Shown here piece after piece: positions 4,064 through 42,633 of a stretch of DNA of 64,000 bases. The stretch is from NCBI RefSeq assembly GCF_000379625.1, contig NZ_KB903229.1, positions 104,247-168,246 of the forward strand. Reading direction: 5' to 3'. The translations under genes were made by a program, and so were the position numbers. The stretch's first letter is position 1, and every line of letters starts with the position of its first letter. A model generated the notes under the pieces. The model worked only from the letters and a program-made list of their open reading frames with translations. It made no database searches and was not told the DNA's origin. Source of the stretch: Actinomycetospora chiangmaiensis DSM 45062. Its GTDB lineage: Bacteria > Actinomycetota > Actinomycetes > Mycobacteriales > Pseudonocardiaceae.

Positions 4064-4963
4064 GTGCAGACCCTGCCGAGACGGTCGCTCACGGCGGTGG
4101 GGGTCGCGGCCGTGCTGCTGGTCGCGGCCGCGTGTGGCAGCCCGCAGGTACCCGCCGTCGCGCCCCTGGCCGCGACGCCCACGGCCCCCGCTCCCCCGAT
4201 CGCGCCCCCTCCCCCCGCGCCGCCGACGACCACCACCACCGCGACCCCGGCGTCGGCCGACCTGCACGACCCGGCGCTCAAGGACATCGCGATGCAACTG
4301 GTGTCGAGCGCCGAGAACTCGTCGCTGGACTGGCGCGCCCAGTACGGCTACCTGCAGGACATCGGCGACGGGCGGGGCTACACCGGCGGGATCATCGGCT
4401 TCACGTCCGGGACCGGCGACATGCTGACGCTGGTCCGGAACTACACCGCCGCCGTGCCGGGCAACCCGCTCGCGGAGTTCCTCCCGGCCCTGCGTGCGGT
4501 GAACGGGAGCGATTCGCACGACGGCCTCGGCGCGGCGTTCGAGGACGCGTGGCGGGAGGCCGCCACCGACCGTCGGTTCACGGCCGCGCAGGACCGTCTC
4601 CGCGACTCGGCCTACTTCGACCCCGCCGTCGCGGCGGCGAGGGCCGACGGCCTGCCGCCGCTCGGTCAGTTCGCCTACTACGACGCGATCGTGGTGCACG
4701 GCCCCGGCGACGACGCCGCGAGCTTCGGCGGCATCCGGGCCGCGGCGAAGGACCGGGCGAGGACCCCGGCCCAGGGCGGTGACCTCGCCGACTACCTCGA
4801 CGCCTTCTGGCAGGTGCGGATCGCGGTGATGCGCTCCGAACCCGCCCACACCGACGTCACCCGCATCACCGACGTGCAGCAGAAGTTCGCCCGCGAGGGG
4901 AACTACGCGCTCCGGACGCCGCTGACCTTCTCGGTCTACGGGGACCGCTTCACCGTCCCGTGA
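4064..4963 (+). CDS. GH46 chitosanase, predicted lipoprotein
   Basis: Endo-hydrolase of chitosan, family GH46. The two catalytic acids are in place: Glu84 in SSAENS and Asp102 in GDGRGYTGG, 18 residues apart as in the Streptomyces enzyme. A lipoprotein signal precedes (LVAAAC, Cys24), followed by a Pro/Thr-rich linker (about residues 28-66), so the enzyme is probably tethered to the outer membrane face rather than freely secreted. 299 residues including the linker. GTG 4064 is chosen because AGGGGAGG lies 8 bases before it and the signal peptide begins there. It stands alone between the tRNA and DUF4267. Presumed role is use of fungal or arthropod chitosan. Confidence 0.9.
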   Translation: MQTLPRRSLTAVGVAAVLLVAAACGSPQVPAVAPLAATPTAPAPPIAPPPPAPPTTTTTATPASADLHDPALKDIAMQLVSSAENSSLDWRAQYGYLQDIGDGRGYTGGIIGFTSGTGDMLTLVRNYTAAVPGNPLAEFLPALRAVNGSDSHDGLGAAFEDAWREAATDRRFTAAQDRLRDSAYFDPAVAAARADGLPPLGQFAYYDAIVVHGPGDDAASFGGIRAAAKDRARTPAQGGDLADYLDAFWQVRIAVMRSEPAHTDVTRITDVQQKFAREGNYALRTPLTFSVYGDRFTVP

Positions 4964-32736: not shown

Positions 32737-34126
32737 CCTCGAGGTGGACGTCGTGGTGATCGGCGCGGGCCCGGTGGGGGAGAACGTCGCCGACCGCGCG
32801 CACCAGCAGGGGCTGAGCGCCGCGATCGTCGAGGCGGGCCTGGTCGGGGGCGAGTGCTCGTACTACGCGTGCATCCCGTCGAAGGCGCTGCTGCGCCCGG
32901 TCGACCTGCGGGCCGCGGTGGCGCGCATGCCCGGTCTCGACGTGGGCCCGGTGGACCCGGCGAAGGTCTTCGCGCGGCGCGACCAGTTCGCGAACCCGGA
33001 CGACTCCGGCCAGGCCGACTGGCTCGACGGCGCCGGCATCACGCTGCTGCGCGGCCGCGGCCGGATCACCGGTGAGCGGGCGGTCGCGGTGGACCACGGG
33101 GACGGGACGACGACGGACGTCGCCGCCCGCTACGTCGTCGTCGCGACCGGCTCGGTGCCCACGTACCCGCCGATCGACGGGATCGATGAGGTCGACGCGT
33201 GGACCAACCGCGAGGTCACGCAGGCTTCGCGCGTGCCGGACTCACTGCTGATCCTCGGCGGTGGGGTGGTCGGGGTGGAGATGGCGACCGCCTACCAGCG
33301 GCTGGGCAGCCGCGTGACGCTCGTGCAGCACGGCGAGCGGCTGGTCCCCTCCGTCGAGCCCGAGGCGTCCCGGCGGCTGCAGGCCTCGCTGGAGCGTGAC
33401 GGCGTGGACGTGCGGCTCGGCGTCTCGATGACGGCCGTGAAGCGCGACGGCAGTGAGGTCGTGGCCTCGCTCGACGACGGGTCCGAGCTGCGCGGGGCGG
33501 AACTGCTCGTCGCGGCGGGTCGGAAGCCCGCGACGTCGGACCTCGGGCTGGACACGGTGGGCCTGGAGCCCGGCAAGCCGCTCGACGCCGACGACACGAC
33601 GACGGTGCAGGGCGACTGGCTGTACGCCGTCGGGGACGCCTCGACCGGCGCGAAGCTCACGCACATGGGCAAGTACCAGGCCCGCAGCTGCGCCGACGTG
33701 CTCGTGGCCCGCTCGAAGGGCGCCGAGGTGGGCGGCCGGTACACGAAGACCTCGACGACGGCCGAGCAGACCGCCGTCCCGCAGGTCATCTTCACCGACC
33801 CGCAGCTCGCGGCGGTCGGGCACACGTCGGAGAGCGCGGAACGGGCCGGGCTGCCCGTCCGCGCCGTGAGCTACGAGATCGGGAACACCGCCGGCGGGTC
33901 CTTGCAGGCCGACGGCTACGACGGGTTCGCGACGATCGTGGTCGACACCGACCGCGAGGTGATCGTCGGCGCGACCTTCGTCGGGCAGGACGTCGCCGAC
34001 ATGGTGCACGGGGCGACCATCGCGATCGTCGGGGAGGTGCCGCTCGCCCGCCTGTGGCACGCGGTCCCGTCGTTCCCGACGATGTCCGAGGTCTGGCTGC
34101 GCCTGCTGGAGACGTACGGGATGTGA
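32729..34126 (+). CDS. Pyridine nucleotide-disulfide oxidoreductase
   Basis: 465 residues. N-terminal FAD motif VIGAGPVGENVA, a redox pair C43-x4-C48 in GECSYYACIPSK, then a second Rossmann motif LILGGGVVGVEMATAY, and the C-terminal dimerisation domain ending WHAVPSFPTMSEVWL. The class I signature is usually GGTCxNxGCxPSK; here it is GGECSYYACIPSK, typical of an actinobacterial subgroup. ATG 32729 overlaps the upstream gene by 8 bases. Substrate may be a mycothiol-related disulfide or lipoamide; unresolved. It ends just before a stem-loop. Confidence 0.88.
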   Translation: MADLEVDVVVIGAGPVGENVADRAHQQGLSAAIVEAGLVGGECSYYACIPSKALLRPVDLRAAVARMPGLDVGPVDPAKVFARRDQFANPDDSGQADWLDGAGITLLRGRGRITGERAVAVDHGDGTTTDVAARYVVVATGSVPTYPPIDGIDEVDAWTNREVTQASRVPDSLLILGGGVVGVEMATAYQRLGSRVTLVQHGERLVPSVEPEASRRLQASLERDGVDVRLGVSMTAVKRDGSEVVASLDDGSELRGAELLVAAGRKPATSDLGLDTVGLEPGKPLDADDTTTVQGDWLYAVGDASTGAKLTHMGKYQARSCADVLVARSKGAEVGGRYTKTSTTAEQTAVPQVIFTDPQLAAVGHTSESAERAGLPVRAVSYEIGNTAGGSLQADGYDGFATIVVDTDREVIVGATFVGQDVADMVHGATIAIVGEVPLARLWHAVPSFPTMSEVWLRLLETYGM

Positions 34127-34132
34127 CCCCGT

Positions 34133-34178
34133 CAGGTGAGCACTCAATGGGGTTATAGGCCCTCTTAGTGCTCACCTG
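34133..34178. terminator. Bidirectional stem-loop with GTGAGCACT arms
   Basis: Outer 12-base arms CAGGTGAGCACT / AGTGCTCACCTG with a few mismatches inside and a TTATAG loop. It separates the three-gene redox operon from the convergent gene at 34193. Same arm sequence as at 10181. Confidence 0.75.
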
Positions 34179-34192
34179 CGCGGCGCGCACCT

Positions 34193-34831
34193 CTAGTTGC
34201 TGATCGCCGGCGACGCGTGCAGGTACGCGGTGCTGGTGACTTGGTCGACCAGGAAGCGGGCGACGTCGGCGCGCGCCATCTCCACGCCGATCGGGTCGAC
34301 GCCGAGGAAGCCCGACCGGATCGGGTTGCCGCCCGGCACGTCGATCGGCGCGAACATGCGGGCGACGGTCCAGTCGAGGTCGGACGTGGTGACGACCTCG
34401 TGGATGCCCTGCACCTCGGCGAGCGCGCCGGGGATGAGGATGCCGATCCCGATCGGCACGAGCCGGTCGAGCAGGCGCGGCCGGTCCCGCGGGTCGGGCA
34501 CGCTCACGGTGACCAGCGAGACCAGTCGCCGCACGTCCGCGGCCTGCATCGCCTTGACGACGTTCCGGGTGCCGTCGGTCAGCGGCGTGTCGGACAGGAA
34601 CGGGTCGATCGGCGGGCCGTAGGCGGTGATCACCGCGTCGGCGCCGTCGACGGCCCGGGCCACGGCGTCGGTGTCCGAGAGCTGGGCCTCGATCACCTCC
34701 ACCGCGTACTGCAGTTCCCCGAGCTTCCCGGGGGAGCGGACGAGGGCGGTGACCTCGTGCCCGTCGGCGAGGAGGTGGCTGACGACGAACCGGCCGACGC
34801 CGCCGGTCGCCCCGAACACGGTGACCTTCAT
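34193..34831 (-). CDS. NAD(P)H-binding protein (NmrA/SDR-like)
   Basis: 212 residues of the atypical SDR group: KVTVFGATGGVGRFVVSHLL, AQLSDTDAVARAVDGADAVITAYG, and a C-terminal FLVDQVTSTAYLHASP. Its ATG overlaps the stop of the MgtE-N/CBS gene by 4 bases (ATGA), so its translation depends on that gene. It has no obvious metal role; possibly a redox sensor or an enzyme riding on the operon. Ribosome site is weak, in line with coupling. Confidence 0.85.
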   Translation of the reverse strand: MKVTVFGATGGVGRFVVSHLLADGHEVTALVRSPGKLGELQYAVEVIEAQLSDTDAVARAVDGADAVITAYGPPIDPFLSDTPLTDGTRNVVKAMQAADVRRLVSLVTVSVPDPRDRPRLLDRLVPIGIGILIPGALAEVQGIHEVVTTSDLDWTVARMFAPIDVPGGNPIRSGFLGVDPIGVEMARADVARFLVDQVTSTAYLHASPAISN

Positions 34832-36156
34832 GGGGAGGGATGGCTCACGGAGGTCGTGTCCAACCGTTCCGTGTCGGGCAGCACACCGGGCGTCGGCAGC
34901 TCGCGGCGCCGCCAGTCGTCCGGGACCGCCGCCTCGAGGGCGTCGTCGACGGTGACCACGCCGAGGACCCGCCCGTCGCCGTCGACCACGGGCAGCGTCA
35001 GCAGGTCGTAGTCGCTCATGAGCACCGCGACCTCGACGACGTCCGCGTCCGCGCGTACCCGCACCGGGTCGGCCTCCGCGACGTCGGCCATCCGCGCCGC
35101 CGGGTCCGCCTGGATGAGGCGCACGAGCGGGACGCTGCCGCACAGCCGGTCGTGGGCGTCGAGGGCGAGCACGGTCGTGAGCACCCCCGGCTGCACCGCC
35201 GACGTCCGAACCCGGTCGAGGGCCTCCGCGACCGACGTCGACCCCGGCACGGCGAGGTGGTCGGGGATCATCAGGCCGCCCGCCGACGTCGGGTTGTACC
35301 CCAGGAGGGCGACGACCTTCGCGCGTCGCGGGGCCGGCAGGAGGTCGAGCACCCGCCGTCGGCGCTCCTGGGACAGGTCCATCAGGGCGTCCGTGGCGTC
35401 GTCGGCGTTCATCCGCGCGAGGACCGAGGCCACGTCGTCGTCGGTGCGGTCGCGGAACAGCCGGGACTGGTCGTCCTCCTCGAGCTCCTCGAAGACGTCG
35501 GCCTCGAGCTCCGGGTCCGCGTGGACGCGGTCGAGCAGCTCGGCCTGCTCGGACCGGGACGCCTCCTCGAGGAGGTCGGCGAGCTGGGGTGCCTTGAGGT
35601 CGCGGAGCCGGTCGAGCGGGGTCCGGGCGAGGACCGAGGGCGCGTGCCCGATGAGGGCCTCGAACGCGACCCAGTCGCGGCAGCGGGCGCCGTCGTCGTC
35701 GGTGACCGGGACGGGACCGGGGAGCAGCCTTCCCAACGCACGCCGCCACCAGGCGCGGGGGCGGACGTCGACCCCGACGAGGGTGGCGGCCGCCGGCGTG
35801 ACGGCGAGCTCCAGATCCCAGGCGGTGACGAGCGCCGCGGCGGGGATGTCGATGAGGCGGTGCCCGAGGATGTCCTGGCGCAGCAGCACCTCGCCGTCGC
35901 GGCGGGCGAAGGGCCGCAGGTCGAGCCGATCCCCGCGCAGGGCGAGATCGGTGGCGCTCCAGTCGACGACCTCCTCGGCGGGCAGGAACAGCCGGTGGCC
36001 GCCGACGTCGGCGACGAGCCCGGTCACGGCCGGGTGGTCGTGTCCGCTGAGCCGGACGATCACGTCGGCGACGCGACCGAGGTGCTGGTCGTGGGTGCCC
36101 CGAACCGGGCGCCCGAGGAGGTCGTGCAGGGATCGGTTCCGGACCGGCTGGGACAT
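34828..36156 (-). CDS. Soluble MgtE-N / CBS domain protein with PRC-barrel
   Basis: 442 residues without membrane segments. Order: PRC-barrel-like N-terminus (about 10-80; LHDLLGRPVRGTHDQHLGRVADVIVRL), a second barrel to about 140, an MgtE-N superhelical domain (about 165-290; LADLLEEASRSEQAELLDRVHADPELEADVFEELEEDDQ), and two CBS motifs (about 300-425). MgtE channels use exactly these cytosolic parts to sense Mg2+, but here the membrane pore is missing. ATG 36156 has GGAAGGAAG upstream; a start at 36189 overlapping the Nramp stop (ATGA) is an alternative. It lies immediately downstream of an Nramp-type transporter and is likely its Mg2+-sensing regulatory partner. Confidence 0.85.
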   Translation of the reverse strand: MSQPVRNRSLHDLLGRPVRGTHDQHLGRVADVIVRLSGHDHPAVTGLVADVGGHRLFLPAEEVVDWSATDLALRGDRLDLRPFARRDGEVLLRQDILGHRLIDIPAAALVTAWDLELAVTPAAATLVGVDVRPRAWWRRALGRLLPGPVPVTDDDGARCRDWVAFEALIGHAPSVLARTPLDRLRDLKAPQLADLLEEASRSEQAELLDRVHADPELEADVFEELEEDDQSRLFRDRTDDDVASVLARMNADDATDALMDLSQERRRRVLDLLPAPRRAKVVALLGYNPTSAGGLMIPDHLAVPGSTSVAEALDRVRTSAVQPGVLTTVLALDAHDRLCGSVPLVRLIQADPAARMADVAEADPVRVRADADVVEVAVLMSDYDLLTLPVVDGDGRVLGVVTVDDALEAAVPDDWRRRELPTPGVLPDTERLDTTSVSHPSP

Positions 36157-36185
36157 GGTGCTTCCTTCCGGGGTCGGTGCGGGGC

Positions 36186-37829
36186 TCATGACGCGAGGGC
36201 GAGCTGGACGATGCGGACGACGACCATCCCGACGGCGACGACGAGGTAGCCGCGGAGCACGGTCAGCCCGAGCCGGCGCCCGCGGGAGAGTTCCGGGCGG
36301 GTGAGCAGGGCGAGCGGAGGCATGCGCCAGGTGGTCCGGTCGGCCGTCACCACCTCGGGCCGCGCCGCGCCCGACCGGCGACGGACCGCGAGGACGAGGG
36401 CCACCAGCCCGACGAGCACCGCGAGGCCCCCGCCCGCCCCGAGGATCATCAGGATGGCGCCCGCGGTGATGTCGGGGAACACGACGGCCGCGGTCAGGAC
36501 GATCGAGAGCAGCACCAGCACCGCGATGACGACGACGGTGAACAGGTTCCGCACCCGGCCGTTGACCCACGGCCCGAGGACCTCGCGGTCGTTGCAGAGC
36601 AGGAGCAGGAAGACGCTCGCGGAGGGCAGCAGGACGCCGGCGAGGGTCTGCACGCCCTCGGTGAGCAGGCCGAGCGGGCTGCCCGGGATCACCACGACGA
36701 CGGCGGCGAGCACGAGGATGCCCGCGAACACCGCGTAGAAGCCCTTGGCCTCGCGGACCCCGCGGTGCAGCGAGTGCTTCAGCCCGAGGACGTCGCCGAT
36801 CGCGTAGGCGGTGGCCAGCGAGACCGCGGCGGCCCCGATGATGGAGGCGTCGATGAGGGCGAGCGCGAACATCACGCCCGCGGCCGGGCCGACGTAGCGC
36901 CCGAGGCCGTCGGCCACCCCGCCCGCGTCGGTGAAGGCGCCGAACTCCGGCTGTCCGGCGAAGGCCGTCGTCGTGAAGGCCATCATCGCCCCGGCGCCGA
37001 TCACCACGATGACGATGCCGATCCACAGGTCGGCCTTCTCGTAGCCCATGAAACGGGGCGTGATCCGCTTGTCGATCACGTAGGACTGCTGGAAGAACAG
37101 CTGCCACGGCGCCACGGTGGTCCCGACGATGCCGATGATCAGCAGCATCACGGTCGACAGCTCGCCACCGGGCAGGCCGGGCACCACGAAGTCGCGGGCG
37201 AGCTGCCCGATCGGCGGGTGCGCCATGACGAGGATCGGGATCAGCAGCACGTTCCCGACGACGAGCACCAGGCAGACCCGCTCGAAGCGGCGGAAGCTGC
37301 CGGTGGAGGCCGCCGCGACGACGACGACGGCGGCGACGAGCACCCCGGGCACGGTCGGGAGCCCGAGGTAGGACAGCCCGAGGCTGATGCCGATGAACTC
37401 GGTGACGATCGTCAGGCCGTTGAGCAGGAACAGGTCGATGACGCTGAACGCGCCCCAGAACCGGCCGAAGCGCTCCAGGATGAGCCGGGCGTGCCCGACG
37501 CCGGTGACGGCGCCGAGGCGCAGCACCATCTCCTGGTTGAGGTAGAGCACGGGGACGAGCAGGAGCAGCGTCCAGAGCAGGCTCGTGCCGTAGTTCTGCC
37601 CGGCCTGGGTGTAGGTGCCGAAGGCGCCCGCGTCGTTGTCGCCGACCATGACGATGAGGCCGGGGCCGACGATGGCGACGAGGGTCCTGAGGCGGGCGGG
37701 CAGGGTGGCCCGCGCGCCGGTGTCGTCGAGGCGGACGGTGCCGAGCGCACCGTGGATGTCGCCGAGGTGGGCGTCGTCGAGGACGGCGCTCTCGGAGCGG
37801 CCGCGGTCGGTCGGGGTGGGCGTGGCCAT
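36186..37829 (-). CDS. Nramp-related divalent metal transporter (Mg2+-type site)
   Basis: 547 residues with about 11 membrane segments. The TM1 motif that is DPGN in Nramp/MntH reads D66-A-G-A (GDNDAGAFG), and the TM6 Met-Pro-His reads A240-P-W (GTTVAPWQ). Loss of the TM6 methionine is the hallmark reported for Nramp-related magnesium transporters, so Mg2+ rather than Mn2+/Fe2+ is the likely cargo. The gene is followed by the MgtE-N/CBS protein and preceded by a copy of an operator-like sequence found before arsR. Direction (uptake) is inferred from the family. Confidence 0.85.
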   Translation of the reverse strand: MATPTPTDRGRSESAVLDDAHLGDIHGALGTVRLDDTGARATLPARLRTLVAIVGPGLIVMVGDNDAGAFGTYTQAGQNYGTSLLWTLLLLVPVLYLNQEMVLRLGAVTGVGHARLILERFGRFWGAFSVIDLFLLNGLTIVTEFIGISLGLSYLGLPTVPGVLVAAVVVVAAASTGSFRRFERVCLVLVVGNVLLIPILVMAHPPIGQLARDFVVPGLPGGELSTVMLLIIGIVGTTVAPWQLFFQQSYVIDKRITPRFMGYEKADLWIGIVIVVIGAGAMMAFTTTAFAGQPEFGAFTDAGGVADGLGRYVGPAAGVMFALALIDASIIGAAAVSLATAYAIGDVLGLKHSLHRGVREAKGFYAVFAGILVLAAVVVVIPGSPLGLLTEGVQTLAGVLLPSASVFLLLLCNDREVLGPWVNGRVRNLFTVVVIAVLVLLSIVLTAAVVFPDITAGAILMILGAGGGLAVLVGLVALVLAVRRRSGAARPEVVTADRTTWRMPPLALLTRPELSRGRRLGLTVLRGYLVVAVGMVVVRIVQLALAS

Positions 37830-37849
37830 GGGTCAACTCGCTCTCATGG

Positions 37850-37865
37850 TCATACAATCGTTTGA
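37850..37865. promoter_or_regulatory. Operator-like site upstream of the Nramp-related gene
   Basis: On the minus strand reads TCAAACGATTGTATGA, sharing TCAAACGAT and GTATGA with the site before arsR at 40726. TATGAC at its end may serve as a -10 box, 18 bases before the ATG at 37829. Confidence 0.5.
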
Positions 37866-37901
37866 ACGTAGGTCGGGGAGACGGGCGCGGATGCGGGTGG
37901 A

Positions 37902-40490
37902 CTAGAGCCAGCGGCCCCGGCGTCGCAGGTGTAGGGCCTTGAGCGCCTGGGCGAGCACGGCGTAACCGAGCACCACGGCGGCGATCCAGAGCAGGTAGAC
38001 CGGCGGCGGGCCCTGGAGGGACAGCGCGCCGGCCAGGGGACTGAAGGTGAGGACGAGGCCCGCCGCCGCGACGGCGCCGGCGGCGAGGACCACCGGGCGC
38101 CGGGGGAGGCGGCGCCACGGTCGCCCGCGGGTGCGCAGCACCAGCACGATCGCGAGCTGGGTGAGCAGTCCCTCGACGAACCAGCCGGCCCGGAAGACCT
38201 CGGGCGTGCCGCCGGCGTCGAGGCCCCACCAGAGCACGCCGAAGGTGGCGAGGTCGAACAGCGAGCTCAGCGGCCCGAACACCAGCATGAAGCGGACCAG
38301 CTCGGAGGTGTCCCAGCGGCGGGGTCGCGCGGTGTACTCGGGGTCGACCCGGTCCCACGGCAGGGCGAGCTGGGCGGCGTCGTAGAGCAGGTTCTGCACC
38401 ACGAGCTGCAGCGGGAGCAGGGGGAGGAACGGCAGCAGGACGGCGGCGGCGACGAGCGTCAGCACGTTGCCGAAGTTCGAGCTCGCCGTGATCGTGACGT
38501 ACTTCAGCGTGTTGCCGAGCGTGCGGCGGCCCTCGACCACCCCGGCGGCGAGCACGGCGAGGTCCGGGTCGGTCAGGACGAGGTCGGCGGCCCGCTTGGC
38601 CGCCGGGGTCGCGGAGTCGGGTGCGATGCCGACGTCGGCGATCCGCAGGGCGGGGGCGTCGTTGACCCCGTCGCCGACGAAGCCGACGACCCGGCCGCGG
38701 GCCCGCAACGCGCTGACGACCCGGACCTTGTGGGCCGGGGTGACGCGGGCGAACACCCGCGCCCGCTCCAGCACGCGTGCGAGCCGGGCGTCGTCGAGCG
38801 CGTCGAGCTCCTCGCCGACGACGACGTCGGTGGCGGGGATGCCCGCCTGGTTCGCCACCCGTGCCGCGACGTGGCGGTTGTCCCCGGTGAGCAGGAGGAC
38901 CTCGACCCCGTGCGCGGCGAGCCCCCGGACCGTGGCCGGGGCGCTCTCGCGCACCGGGTCGACGAACCCGACGAAGCCGACGAGGATCAGGTCCTGCTCG
39001 TCGGCCTCGGAGACCTCGCCCAGCCGGGGGAGCCGCCGCGCGGCCACCGCGAGCAGGCGCAGCCCCTGGTCGGCGTGGGCGCGCGCGAGGTCGTCCGCGG
39101 CGAGCCGGCTCCCGCGGTCGAGCTCGAGCGCGTCACCCGCGAGGCGGACGTGCGAGCAGCGCGGGAGCACCTCGTCCGGGTCGCCCTTGGTGATCATCAG
39201 GCGCTCGCCGTCGTGGCGGCGCACGACCACCGACGACCGGCGCCGCACCTGGTCGAACCCGATCTCGTCCACCGGGCTGTAGAGCGTCTCGTCGAGGGTG
39301 TCCGTCGGGTCGGCCAGCTGCTCGAGCACGGCCTCGTCGAGCCGGCCCGCCGGCGCGATCTGACACCGGACGGCGAGGACGGCGTACGCCGCCGCCTCGT
39401 CGTCGGGACGGCCACGGGGGTCGATGCTGTGCGTCGCGACGAGCCGCTCCTCGGTGAGCGTCCCGGTCTTGTCCACGCACACGACGTCGGCCGCGCCGAG
39501 GTCCTGCACCGCGTTCAGCCGGGTCACGATCACGTGGGCGCGCGCGAGCCGGCGGGCGCCCCGCGCGAGGGTGGTCGTCACGACGACCGGGAGCATCTCC
39601 GGCGTCAGGCCCACCGCCACCGCCGTGGCGAACAGCAGGGCCTGCTCCCAGTCCCCGGTCACCGTGCCGTTGACGGCGAGCACGATCGGGACCAGCACGA
39701 GCATGAAGCGCACGAGCGTGCGGCTGACGTCGCGGACCCCGCGGTCGAACGACGACTCGGGGCGCTCCCGCGCGGCCCGGCGCGCCAGGGCCCCGGAGTA
39801 GGTGGCCGCGCCCACGGCGACGACGACGGCCGTCGCGGTCCCGGCGACCACCTCGGAGCCGGCCAGGCAGAGCACGGCGGAGTCCTCGGGCCCGCCCTCG
39901 GGCGTCCCGGTCGCCGCCTTCGCCACCGGCAGGCTCTCCCCGGTGAGCACGGCCTGGTCGACGAACAGGTCGGCGCTGGTGAGGAGCCGCAGGTCTGCGG
40001 GGACGACGTCCCCGGGGGCGAGCAGGACCACGTCGCCGGGCACGACGTCCGCGAGCGGGACCTCCCGGGCGAACGGGTCGGCGTCGGCGTCGGCCCGGCG
40101 GCGGACGGTCACGGTGGTCACCACACGGGACCCGACCGCGCGCACCGCCCGGTCGGAGCGGACCTGCTGCCACCGGCGCAGGGCCACCGAGGCCAGGACC
40201 GTCGCGGTCACCGTGACGGCGCCACGGACGTCCCCGACGAGGACGAACACGACGGCGAGCCCGGAGAGCAGGGCCACGAACGGGCTGCGGACCGCGCTCC
40301 ACGTCGCCCCGAGGGCGGACGGGCGCGGGTCGAGGTCGACGGCGTTCTCGCCGTGGGTGTCCTGCCGCCGGGCGGCCTCGGCCTCGGTGAGGCCGTGCGG
40401 TCCGGTGTCGAGGGTGCGCAGCACCTCGAACGCCGACGCGGTCGCGGCGTGGGTGAGGGCGGCGGTGTCGGGCAGCGTGCCGGTGGGCAT
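37902..40490 (-). CDS. mgtA: Magnesium-translocating P-type ATPase (MgtA/MgtB type)
   Basis: 862 residues. Motifs: TGES (VLTGESLPVAK), GLTPEMLPVVV in TM4 (the P3B Mg2+-ATPase signature), phosphorylation site DKTGTLTE, TGDNRHVA and GDGVNDAPAL, and NLLYDAAQLALPWDRVD in TM6, typical of MgtA. Imports Mg2+ when magnesium is low. ATG 40490 has AGGGA 8 bases upstream. A small leader ORF with a strong ribosome site lies 76-153 bases upstream in the same direction. The divergent arsR gene begins 285 bases away. No M-box riboswitch pattern is evident. Confidence 0.93.
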   Translation of the reverse strand: MPTGTLPDTAALTHAATASAFEVLRTLDTGPHGLTEAEAARRQDTHGENAVDLDPRPSALGATWSAVRSPFVALLSGLAVVFVLVGDVRGAVTVTATVLASVALRRWQQVRSDRAVRAVGSRVVTTVTVRRRADADADPFAREVPLADVVPGDVVLLAPGDVVPADLRLLTSADLFVDQAVLTGESLPVAKAATGTPEGGPEDSAVLCLAGSEVVAGTATAVVVAVGAATYSGALARRAARERPESSFDRGVRDVSRTLVRFMLVLVPIVLAVNGTVTGDWEQALLFATAVAVGLTPEMLPVVVTTTLARGARRLARAHVIVTRLNAVQDLGAADVVCVDKTGTLTEERLVATHSIDPRGRPDDEAAAYAVLAVRCQIAPAGRLDEAVLEQLADPTDTLDETLYSPVDEIGFDQVRRRSSVVVRRHDGERLMITKGDPDEVLPRCSHVRLAGDALELDRGSRLAADDLARAHADQGLRLLAVAARRLPRLGEVSEADEQDLILVGFVGFVDPVRESAPATVRGLAAHGVEVLLLTGDNRHVAARVANQAGIPATDVVVGEELDALDDARLARVLERARVFARVTPAHKVRVVSALRARGRVVGFVGDGVNDAPALRIADVGIAPDSATPAAKRAADLVLTDPDLAVLAAGVVEGRRTLGNTLKYVTITASSNFGNVLTLVAAAVLLPFLPLLPLQLVVQNLLYDAAQLALPWDRVDPEYTARPRRWDTSELVRFMLVFGPLSSLFDLATFGVLWWGLDAGGTPEVFRAGWFVEGLLTQLAIVLVLRTRGRPWRRLPRRPVVLAAGAVAAAGLVLTFSPLAGALSLQGPPPVYLLWIAAVVLGYAVLAQALKALHLRRRGRWL

Positions 40491-40565
40491 GGTCGGTCCC
40501 TGTCGCTGGTCGAGCGGATCGGGGGCGTGCCACCACGCGGGACGACCGGGCACCTGGCGGCCCCG

Positions 40566-40643
40566 TCAGGGCCGGGCGGTCCGGTCGCCCGCGCGGCGGC
40601 CCGGACTTCCGGTGGGATCCGTGGCGTCGGACAGATCGGTCAT
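40566..40643 (-). CDS. Putative mgtA leader peptide (25 residues)
   Basis: A short ORF from ATG 40643 to TGA 40566, preceded by a near-perfect ribosome site AGGAGGTGAG 6 bases away, much stronger than that of mgtA itself. The peptide begins MTDLSDATDPTGSPGRR and ends RTARP, with Asp at 3, 6, 9 and Pro at 10 and 14. Asp/Pro-containing leaders regulate mgtA in enterobacteria by Mg2+-sensitive translation. GC-rich potential stems (GGGCCG with CGGCCC) overlap the ORF. Whether it works as an attenuator is inference; its existence as a translated ORF is supported by the ribosome site. Confidence 0.55.
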   Translation of the reverse strand: MTDLSDATDPTGSPGRRAGDRTARP

Positions 40644-40725
40644 GCGGGCTCACCTCCTCGGGTCGGGACCGGACACGTCGCCGGACGACGACGGCGATCA
40701 GTAGACCCCCGCGTCCCTCGAACAG

Positions 40726-40748
40726 TCAAACGATCGTGCAAGTATGAT
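40726..40748 (+). promoter_or_regulatory. arsR promoter with overlapping operator
   Basis: TCAAACGATCGTGCAAGTATGA ends in the -10-like hexamer TATGAT (40743-40748). It contains the 8-base palindrome ACGATCGT. It shares TCAAACGAT and GTATGA with the site before the Nramp-related gene, so a common regulator, probably the ArsR encoded next door, may bind both. Confidence 0.55.
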
Positions 40749-40775
40749 GACTCACGTCGTCTCCAGGAGGTGCGC

Positions 40776-41126
40776 ATGGCCCCACCGGGACCGGGCGAGC
40801 GGCCGGACCCGGCCGTCGTCCAGGACGCGGCCGGGACCTTCGGGCTCCTCGCCGCCACCGTGCGGGTGGAGCTCGTGTGGCTGCTCGCGCACGGCGAGCG
40901 CGACGTGGGCACGCTGGCGGAGCTCACCGGACAGTCGGTCGCCACCGTCAGCCACCACCTCGGCAAGCTGCGCCTCGCGGGCCTCGTGAGCGCGCGACGC
41001 GAGGGCAAGTACCAGGTCTACGCGGTCGACGACCCGCACGTGGTCGAGCTGGTGCGCGGCGCCGTCGCCCACCACGAGGACCTGCGGCGGACCCCGCCCG
41101 TCCGCCGGCGTCGCCGTGGTGCTTGA
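40776..41126 (+). CDS. ArsR/SmtB-family metal-responsive repressor
   Basis: 116 residues with a winged helix (TLAELTGQSVATVSHHLGKLRLAGLVSARREGKYQVYAV). The C-terminal alpha-5 helix carries D86-x-H88-x10-H99-x2-D102, the spacing of the alpha-5 metal site of SmtB, CzrA and NmtR, and there are no cysteines. It could thus sense Zn, Ni, Co or Mn. AGGAGG lies 5 bases before ATG 40776. It is divergent from mgtA and shares an operator-like sequence with the Nramp-related gene, so it may be the regulator of the magnesium module. The LCP gene starts inside its last 11 bases. Confidence 0.88.
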   Translation: MAPPGPGERPDPAVVQDAAGTFGLLAATVRVELVWLLAHGERDVGTLAELTGQSVATVSHHLGKLRLAGLVSARREGKYQVYAVDDPHVVELVRGAVAHHEDLRRTPPVRRRRRGA

Positions 41127-42633
41127 CGCCCCCGGCCGGCCGGCCGGACAGGGGTCGTCGCGGCCCCACCTCCCGCGTCCTCCGGTCGGCCCCGCTCCCC
41201 GCACCCCGACGGCCCCGCCGCGCGGCCCGCGTCGTGTCCGCCTCGGCCGCGTCGTGGCCACGCTCTGCTCGGTGCTCGTGCTCGTGACCGCCGGCGTCGG
41301 CTACGTCGCCGACCGGTCGCTCACCGGCACCGCGTTCGCGTCCGGGAGCTCGTCCACGCGCTCGGCCGACGGCTCGACGAACATCCTGCTCATCGGGCTC
41401 GACACCCGGCGGGACCAGAACGGCGGCCCGCTGCCCAAGGCCGTGCTCGACGCGCTGCACGCGGGCGACGGCAACGAGGGCGGCTACAACACCAACACGA
41501 TGATCCTGCTCCACGTGCCGAACGGCGGCGGCCGGGTCACCGCGTTCTCCGTCCCGCGCGACGACCTGGTCCCGATCCCCGGCTACCGCCCGGACAAGAT
41601 CAAGCAGGCCTACGGCGTCACCAAGGCCGCCGTCGAGGACCGGATGACCGCGCAGGGTGTCACCGATCCGGCCACCCTCGAGCAGGCCGGCCGGGCGGCG
41701 GGTCGGCAGGCGACCGTCGGGGTGGTGCAGAGCCTGACCGGGCTCCCCGTCGACCACGTGGCCGAGGTGACGCTCGCGGGCTTCTACGACATCGCCACCG
41801 CCCTCGGTGGGGTCACCGTCTGCCTGAACCACGCCGTTCAGGACTCCTACTCCGGCGCCGACTTCCCGGCCGGGGTCCAGCAGCTCGACGGGTCCCAGGC
41901 CCTGGCCTTCGTCCGGCAGCGGCACGGCCTGACCAACGGCGACCTCGACCGCACCCACCGCCAGCAGGCGTTCCTGTCCTCCGCGATGCACCAGGTCACC
42001 GCGGCGGGCACGTGGACCGACCCGACGAAGCTCGCGGCGCTGCTCGACGTCGCCCACCGCGACATCGTGCTCGACCAGGACTTCGACGTGCTCTCCTTCG
42101 CCGCGTCCGCCTCGAACCTCACCAACGGCGACGCCGCCTTCTTCACGCTGCCCATCGAGGGCTTCGTGCAGGCCAACGACGAGGACGACAACGAGGTCGA
42201 CCCGGCCCACGTGCAGGCGTTCATCCGCCAGCAGATCGCCGCCGCGGCCGCGCCGCCGCCCGCCCCGGCCCCGCCGACCGACCCGGCGACCGCCAGGGGG
42301 ACGACGGTGGAGGTCCAGAACGCGTCGGGCACCGCGGGCGAGGCGGCCGCGGCCGAGACGATGCTCGTGGGACACGGCTTCAGCCCCGGTGCCACGTCGA
42401 CCGTCGACGACCGCGCCGCATCGACCGTCGCCGCCGCACCGGGCTCGGAGGCGGCCGCCGCCCTCGCCGCCTCGCTGCTCGGGGGCGGGGTCGCGGTCGC
42501 GACCGACCCCGCGCTGCCCGCCGGTCACCTGCGCATCGTGCTGGGCACCGGCTACCACCCGCCCGCGCCCCCCTCGGCCGCCGGTCCGTCCGGCGGTCCC
42601 GTCCAGGCCGGAGGAGTCCCGTGTGTCGACTGA
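41116..42633 (+). CDS. LytR-CpsA-Psr (LCP) family cell-wall ligase
   Basis: Attaches polymers (arabinogalactan or teichoic-type) from lipid carriers to peptidoglycan. 505 residues: basic Pro-rich cytosolic tail (1-42), one membrane anchor (about 45-68), LCP domain (about 90-330; NILLIGLDTRRD, TMILLHVPNGGGRVTAFSVPRDD, LTNGDLDRTHRQQAFL), a Pro/Ala linker and a LytR_C domain (about 395-475). GTG 41116 lies within the arsR stop region (11-base overlap), suggesting coupling. It is followed by a small membrane protein and a RodA/FtsW gene, all overlapping, consistent with wall synthesis. Confidence 0.9.
   Translation: MVLDAPGRPAGQGSSRPHLPRPPVGPAPRTPTAPPRGPRRVRLGRVVATLCSVLVLVTAGVGYVADRSLTGTAFASGSSSTRSADGSTNILLIGLDTRRDQNGGPLPKAVLDALHAGDGNEGGYNTNTMILLHVPNGGGRVTAFSVPRDDLVPIPGYRPDKIKQAYGVTKAAVEDRMTAQGVTDPATLEQAGRAAGRQATVGVVQSLTGLPVDHVAEVTLAGFYDIATALGGVTVCLNHAVQDSYSGADFPAGVQQLDGSQALAFVRQRHGLTNGDLDRTHRQQAFLSSAMHQVTAAGTWTDPTKLAALLDVAHRDIVLDQDFDVLSFAASASNLTNGDAAFFTLPIEGFVQANDEDDNEVDPAHVQAFIRQQIAAAAAPPPAPAPPTDPATARGTTVEVQNASGTAGEAAAAETMLVGHGFSPGATSTVDDRAASTVAAAPGSEAAAALAASLLGGGVAVATDPALPAGHLRIVLGTGYHPPAPPSAAGPSGGPVQAGGVPCVD

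Follow-up and report, generated by a model that had tools for sequence, protein, structure and literature searches.

Gene content of the locus

The window analysed here, a stretch of 64,000 nucleotides from Actinomycetospora chiangmaiensis DSM 45062 (contig NZ_KB903229.1, positions 104,247 to 168,246), harbours a group of genes that probably constitutes a Mg2+ import module under the transcriptional control of an ArsR-family repressor. A preliminary description of the sequence had placed the genes together and facing an ArsR-type gene, and family matches and coordinates confirm all four on the strands and at the places given there:

40776..41126, plus strand: arsR, ArsR/SmtB-family repressor of 116 amino acids (NF033788, 75.4 bits, above the subfamily cut-off of 55)
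37902..40490, minus strand: mgtA, Mg2+-translocating P-type ATPase of 862 amino acids (TIGR01524, 868.6 bits, cut-off 610.75)
36186..37829, minus strand: nramp, Nramp-related transporter of the NRMT type, 547 amino acids (PF01566, 266.9 bits; best PDB match EleNRMT, 7qia)
34828..36156, minus strand: mgtE-N/CBS gene, PRC barrel, MgtE_N and CBS protein without a pore, 442 amino acids (domain matches)

MgtA exceeds the curated cut-off set for the equivalog family of Mg2+ ATPases and is a predicted P3B-type Mg2+ importer pump. Among solved structures, the Nramp-type protein is closest to the Mg2+ transporter EleNRMT (175 bits), the next PDB match reaching 70.6 bits, and by its sequence it groups with the Mg2+-type NRMT transporters. 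Its transmembrane segments (TM) 1 and 6 read DNDAGA and GTTVAPW, which bears out the earlier claim that the TM1 Asn and the TM6 Met are replaced and gives a DxxA-TxxA site, of which the TM6 part, TTVA, fits the NRMT motif. The published consensus site is DxxG-TxxA/T (PMC8806188); where the window transporter has DxxA in TM1, DxxG is present in three of nine aligned relatives. The equivalog match and EleNRMT as nearest structure support the proposal that these genes point to Mg2+.

The third protein carries an N-terminal PRC-barrel match, unmentioned in the preliminary description, before MgtE_N and CBS, and a domain scan gave no match to the MgtE transmembrane pore (PF01769) in it. The alignment covers six of the nine Mg2+-site residues named for TtMgtE (PMC5882242), and the window protein has an acidic residue at each of the six positions (E59, D91, D95, D226, D247 and D250 correspond to D220, D252, D256, D384, D405 and E408); it does not extend to E258, D259 and D432. 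This soluble protein would probably throttle NRMT at high Mg2+. Pairs of an NRMT and a pore-less MgtE fragment, in many cases preceded by an M-box, have been known since 2014, when feedback by the fragment was also guessed (Shin et al., 2014, PMC4072509), so that the idea of a CBS protein gating NRMT is not new and the preliminary description erred in taking this part of the combination as undescribed. In the same report, one MgtE fragment co-expressed with its NRMT gave no added Mg2+ rescue. The rest of the genome encodes three CorA and two other Nramp proteins, and PF01769 had no match anywhere in the genome.

Operator sites and the putative mgtA promoter

Two sites and a promoter are predicted to connect ArsR with the transporter genes:

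40723..40747, plus strand: operator 1, arsR/mgtA intergenic (0-mismatch pattern match 40726-40741; 36.3 bits, itself a matrix training site)
37844..37868, minus strand: operator 2, 21 nt before the nramp start codon (0-mismatch pattern match 37850-37865; 16.2 bits)
40700..40729, minus strand: putative mgtA promoter TTGACT-N18-TCTACT, with the -35 box inside operator 1 (by eye from aligned leaders)

Operators 1 and 2 are related imperfect palindromes. The 16-bp pattern derived from the two sites, TCAAACGATYGTRYRA, has exactly two 0-mismatch matches in the 5.86-Mb genome, namely these operators, with one more match at one mismatch and one at two mismatches, while the reversed pattern as a control had no genome match within two mismatches. 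With the operator matrix, operator 2 is the only other match above 8 bits in the window besides operator 1. A TTGACT-N17/18-TCTACT promoter with the operator over its -35 box recurs by eye in most of the mgtA leaders compared; a sigma-70 consensus scan did not report the promoter at mgtA, which was seen by eye alone. The operators are putative ArsR binding sites, and ArsR very probably governs Mg2+ import here; the earlier claim that ArsR controls expression gains support at the sequence level from operators and promoter positions.

Conservation of gene order and operator in relatives

The preliminary description had proposed gene order in relatives as a check, which was carried out on 120 family genomes and on nramp loci. 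A divergent arsR lies within about 510 nt at 12 of 21 mgtA places (E<=1e-120; counted by eye) and at 12 of the 15 with at least 49% identity, and genome G027 holds a thirteenth arsR-mgtA pair. The grouping of arsR with mgtA exceeds chance. The joint occurrence of mgtA and nramp is uncommon, since mgtA of at least 50% identity is near nramp in two of 80 loci. Any arsR relative is near nramp in 15 of these 80, and an MgtE-N relative lies no more than 300 nt downstream of nramp in 16. The complete four-gene set was found at four places, the window, L020, L024 and L073 (95 loci examined, several of them short); L073 is Actinomycetospora endophytica, in which the module genes are spread out, and the same-genus genome G042 has arsR-mgtA and no nramp match.

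The operator matrix was built from 16 sites, five of which reappear among the matches of the scan of 80 loci. Upstream of arsR, the operator is present at 11 of the 13 arsR-mgtA places, and it also occurs in arsR-nramp pairs of Cellulomonas and others. Over 1.216 Mb (the 80 loci), 14 rows exceeded 17 bits: five are training sites and the rest represent seven distinct places, five of them at the promoter of an mgtA, an nramp, an arsR/nramp pair or an M-box (twice in L073, once each in L110, L056 and L040), while the other two, L073 6529 and L056 2310, are unassigned. Operators that were not training sites stand before both mgtA and nramp in L073 (32.7 and 31.1 bits), where arsR is preceded by a weaker match (by eye). 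Other ArsR homologs tested stayed below 22 bits, including the mgtA-linked one of G082 (9.0); L209 is without upstream sequence.

When 394 class genomes were scanned for the operator without regard to genes, nine of them had matches with no more than one mismatch. Both 0-mismatch sites (G486 and G353) precede arsR-like sequence, and the ArsR of G486, 74% identical to the window ArsR in a tblastn match and 70% over a longer match, is encoded by an operator-bearing arsR divergent to corA, followed by a second corA. The one-mismatch matches include the window's own site, L148, L150 and L151, which look unrelated by sequence, and L146, L152 and L153, without a match to the four window proteins. 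Since arsR-mgtA, arsR-nramp and arsR-corA promoters carry it, the operator occurs with its ArsR in front of Mg2+ transporters from three unrelated families, which suggests that ArsR serves mgtA, nramp and corA promoters in relatives.

Besides these arrangements, L129 and L132 (G065 and G093) have an operator-bearing ArsR relative divergent to a Na/Ca exchanger gene. In L219 and L220 (G041 and G084) an arsR-less mgtA lies directly downstream of a corA-like open reading frame (ORF; by eye), and the available sequence contains no operator exceeding 8 bits; Burkholderia sp. H160 (L050 8001-12347) has two NRMT-type genes in tandem. At the borders of the window module, an NAD(P)H-binding/NmrA-type gene (34193-34831, minus strand) may belong to the operon, because it shares a 4-nt overlap with the mgtE-N/CBS stop codon, and an LCP-family gene (41116-42633, plus strand) overlaps the end of arsR, with which it may be co-transcribed.

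M-box and operator at nramp genes

An Rfam Mg2+ riboswitch was rejected for the window: scans with RF00380 found no M-box at window 34000-42000 (E<=1), in the whole window (gathering score) or in the genome. The distribution of both control elements was compared over 44 actinobacterial loci counted by their main nramp gene, excluding the second copies L059, L069, L080 and L081, in which neither M-box nor operator was found. The operator consensus for these loci was derived from operator sites already noted. An M-box lies 207-442 nt upstream of the nramp match start in 26 of the 44, an operator with at most three mismatches and no M-box in six (L039, L042, L071, L073, L085 and L102) and a 4-mismatch operator site alone in two (L056 and L067), leaving ten with neither, among them L110, for which the matrix later gave a 20.5-bit operator. 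An operator with at most three mismatches thus precedes none of the 26 M-box nramp genes vs six of the 18 others (Fisher p = 0.0026, relatedness ignored).

Three of the M-box loci have a 4-mismatch operator (L037, L040 and L049). The matrix scan of M-box promoters, which covered 25 of the 26 loci (L048 is without upstream sequence), placed an operator of 17.8 bits immediately before the M-box of L040. In G017, the two nramp genes and a decayed mgtA are each preceded by an operator followed in series by an M-box, and two arsR-linked mgtA genes have the operator without an M-box; a strict either/or of the two elements was rejected on this ground. As the orthologous nramp has one or the other, and as G017 arranges them in series, ArsR operator and M-box are suggested to be functionally equivalent at nramp genes. 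In L167, the decayed-looking mgtA is preceded by a series of operator, M-box and leader ORF at about 4143-4376 (G017:C56).

A different palindrome, TTGCR-N-YGCAA, was noted in single copy at the nramp promoter, upstream of the M-box if there is one, in L038 (7623), L043 (7606), L066 (7421) and L068 (7432), and further in L074 (7463), L076 (3909), L078 (7451) and L105 (7434). In the form TTGCG-N-CGCAA it precedes several Streptomyces M-boxes; no regulator is tied to it.

A short leader ORF between promoter and transporter gene

The mgtA leader contains a further element, with related ORFs in relatives:

40566..40643, minus strand: leader ORF of 25 codons, MTDLSDATDPTGSPGRRAGDRTARP, between promoter and mgtA, with a strong GAGGAGGTGA Shine-Dalgarno sequence

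Leader ORFs with an S..P motif, which was picked after the peptides had been inspected, are found upstream of nramp in 36 of the 44 actinobacterial loci (shuffles mean 1.9, random segments 2.0, antisense 0) and in nine of 36 other loci (shuffles 0.5, random segments 0.9, antisense 1). They occur with an M-box, with an ArsR operator and with both. In a codon survey that took a single ORF from each locus (for L044 this was an overlapping frame instead of the preferred ORF), the rare serine codon AGT accounts for 84 of 190 serine codons in actinobacterial leader ORFs vs 24 of 1081 in nramp genes, and for 13 of 24 in the leaders of other loci vs 49 of 858 in their nramp genes. Length differences inside the leader ORF look by eye like multiples of three in a Streptomyces alignment. 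Among mycobacterial-looking M-box loci, the M-box core was located in six of 18, and MSPGDSPYP-type ORFs are present in four of these six, which are the four with an nramp match.

The same finder gave no leader ORF in the mgtA leaders of G042, L025 and L073, and before the window nramp the 21 nt between operator 2 and the start codon leave no room for one. RNA structure was rejected as evidence: 15 of 200 shuffles equalled or exceeded the window leader in stability (z -1.64), and an alignment of six mgtA leaders had an unfavourable covariation term of +0.78 kcal/mol. Short ORFs rich in D, S and P also stand before nramp in Burkholderia-type loci (L050, L088, L089, L096, L099, L107 and L111), of the MNDSDSCPLC, MPDSDSYP and MPDPEPCS types; no M-box was found there by an Rfam scan, which covered L089 and L099 only.

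Proposed mechanism and the signal of ArsR

Starting from the genes, operators, leader ORF and recurrence in relatives, which are all seen in the sequence, we infer a likely course of regulation of this Mg2+ import module. ArsR would bind at two places, at the imperfect palindrome that overlaps both its own promoter and the -35 box of mgtA, and at the second copy of the palindrome just before the NRMT gene. With sufficient Mg2+, ArsR would repress mgtA, nrmT and the mgtE-N/CBS gene, and a drop in Mg2+ would lift this repression, the short leader ORF before mgtA possibly adding a post-transcriptional control. MgtA would then import Mg2+ at the cost of ATP with NRMT as a second importer, probably throttled at high Mg2+ by the soluble MgtE-N/CBS protein.

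Several observations weigh against this course of events. Operator 2 is weak with the operator matrix, and the loci around the genome's three CorA genes are without an operator above 14 bits. Among relatives, the operator was not found at two of the 13 arsR-mgtA places, G082 and G050. The 0-mismatch operator of G353 belongs to an arsR cut by the contig end, with no match to window MgtA, Nramp or MgtE-N in 6.9 kb, and the distant ArsRs of G065 and G093 have operators of 31.3 and 26.7 bits beside a Na/Ca exchanger. In a scan of 28 family genomes, of which G102 and G120 look like one genome met twice, the M-box is absent from 10 of 12 with an arsR-mgtA pair and from 14 of 16 without, and genome-wide M-box absence as evidence for replacement was rejected. 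Finally, in classical ArsR logic metal releases the repressor from DNA, which would turn importers on at high metal.

As to the signal, ArsR itself might be a protein sensor of Mg2+ that replaces the M-box or acts in series with it, the Mg2+-bound form repressing MgtA, NRMT and CorA importers in an inversion of ArsR logic and the leader ORF forming a second layer common to both controls; we advance this tentatively as a possible reading. If true, ArsR replacing or joining the M-box would offer a compact example from nature of one regulatory task that a protein and an RNA share or exchange, and the response of an ArsR fold to a hard, weakly bound, millimolar ion would become testable.

The ArsR family also includes regulators that do not sense metals, such as BigR, NolR and SdpR. 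In a somewhat unlikely scenario, the window ArsR would likewise answer to a signal linked to Mg2+ shortage, such as pH, nucleotides or envelope stress, and leave the sensing of Mg2+ to leader ORF and RNA. The variable ligand positions of ArsR and the retention of the leader ORF with either control type agree with such a division of labour, but the targets seen are mostly Mg2+ transporters and the 21-nt gap at the window nramp has no space for a leader ORF.

The nearest solved relatives of the window ArsR are SmtB (1r22, 54 bits) and NmtR (2lkp, 42 bits), and an SmtB-like alpha5 set, D86, H88, H99 and D102, is present in this member of a metalloregulatory family. An ordinary Zn, Ni, Co or Mn sensor, freed from DNA by metal at alpha5 and switching Mg2+ importers on against a competing metal, would match these features as well as the acceptance of Mn2+ by EleNRMT-type sites (PMC8806188); still, we consider it unlikely. 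Across 20 linked ArsRs the four alpha5 positions have a fitting residue in just 14, 13, 15 and 11, while operator and targets are constant, and 18 of the 20 have no Cys. Because the alpha5 ligands are only partly kept, a single fixed transition-metal site is unlikely to explain the regulon, whose targets seen here are Mg2+ transporters of three families and whose operator stands in front of M-boxes in G017. A Mg2+ or Mg2+-tied signal would fit the ArsR targets better. An RRxRxA-type basic C-terminal tail was seen by eye in most ArsRs linked to mgtA or corA (window, L116-L124, L073 and P0005) and is missing from nramp-linked and unlinked ArsRs.

It is improbable that ArsR answers to Mn2+, with NRMT and the MgtE-N/CBS protein serving Mn2+ homeostasis: the NRMT of Acidobacterium capsulatum, which is paired with an MgtE fragment, restored mainly the uptake of Mn2+ (PMC4072509) and the window site is DxxA rather than the consensus DxxG, but the remaining targets seen for ArsR are mgtA and corA, and the orthologous nramp is located behind an M-box in the 26 actinobacterial loci counted above.

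Comparison with known systems

Control of bacterial Mg2+ import has been attributed mostly to PhoPQ or RNA (introduction of PMC4072509). A link of ArsR to mgtA, NRMT or Mg2+ import was not found in searches of open-licence PMC papers; the transporter pairing is already known, and the ArsR control circuit appears to be the new part. As in the mgtE-fragment/nrmT operons (Shin et al., 2014, PMC4072509), the window has an NRMT beside a pore-less protein of MgtE cytoplasmic domains and a predicted Mg2+-linked control; those operons are under M-box control, whereas in the window the control element is an ArsR operator, the predicted regulon also takes in mgtA, nramp comes before mgtE-N, and the MgtE-N protein bears a PRC barrel. 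With EleNRMT (PMC8806188, 7qia) the window transporter, known from sequence alone, shares the TM1 Asp, the change of the TM6 Met to Ala and TxxAPW, and differs by DxxA instead of DxxG in TM1. With SmtB, CzrA and NmtR the window ArsR has in common the fold family, the position divergent to a target gene and alpha5-type residues, but those repressors target efflux pumps, whereas the predicted targets here are Mg2+-type importers and the ligand positions are not conserved in orthologs.

The enterobacterial leader peptide MgtL is likewise encoded by a short ORF in the 5' leader of mgtA, yet the peptides are unrelated, and the window has no PhoP and an ArsR operator at the promoter. A further parallel is uORF2/Rv1805A of the mycobacterial M-box, a short conserved ORF between Mg2+ control element and transporter which its authors call mycobacteria-specific (PMC12810186); the MSPGDSPYP-type ORFs of the nramp-linked, mycobacterial-looking loci resemble it. 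Similar ORFs occur here across Actinobacteria, also behind ArsR operators without an M-box, and their presence under both controls with a strong AGT bias widens this peptide class and hints at a common translational layer.

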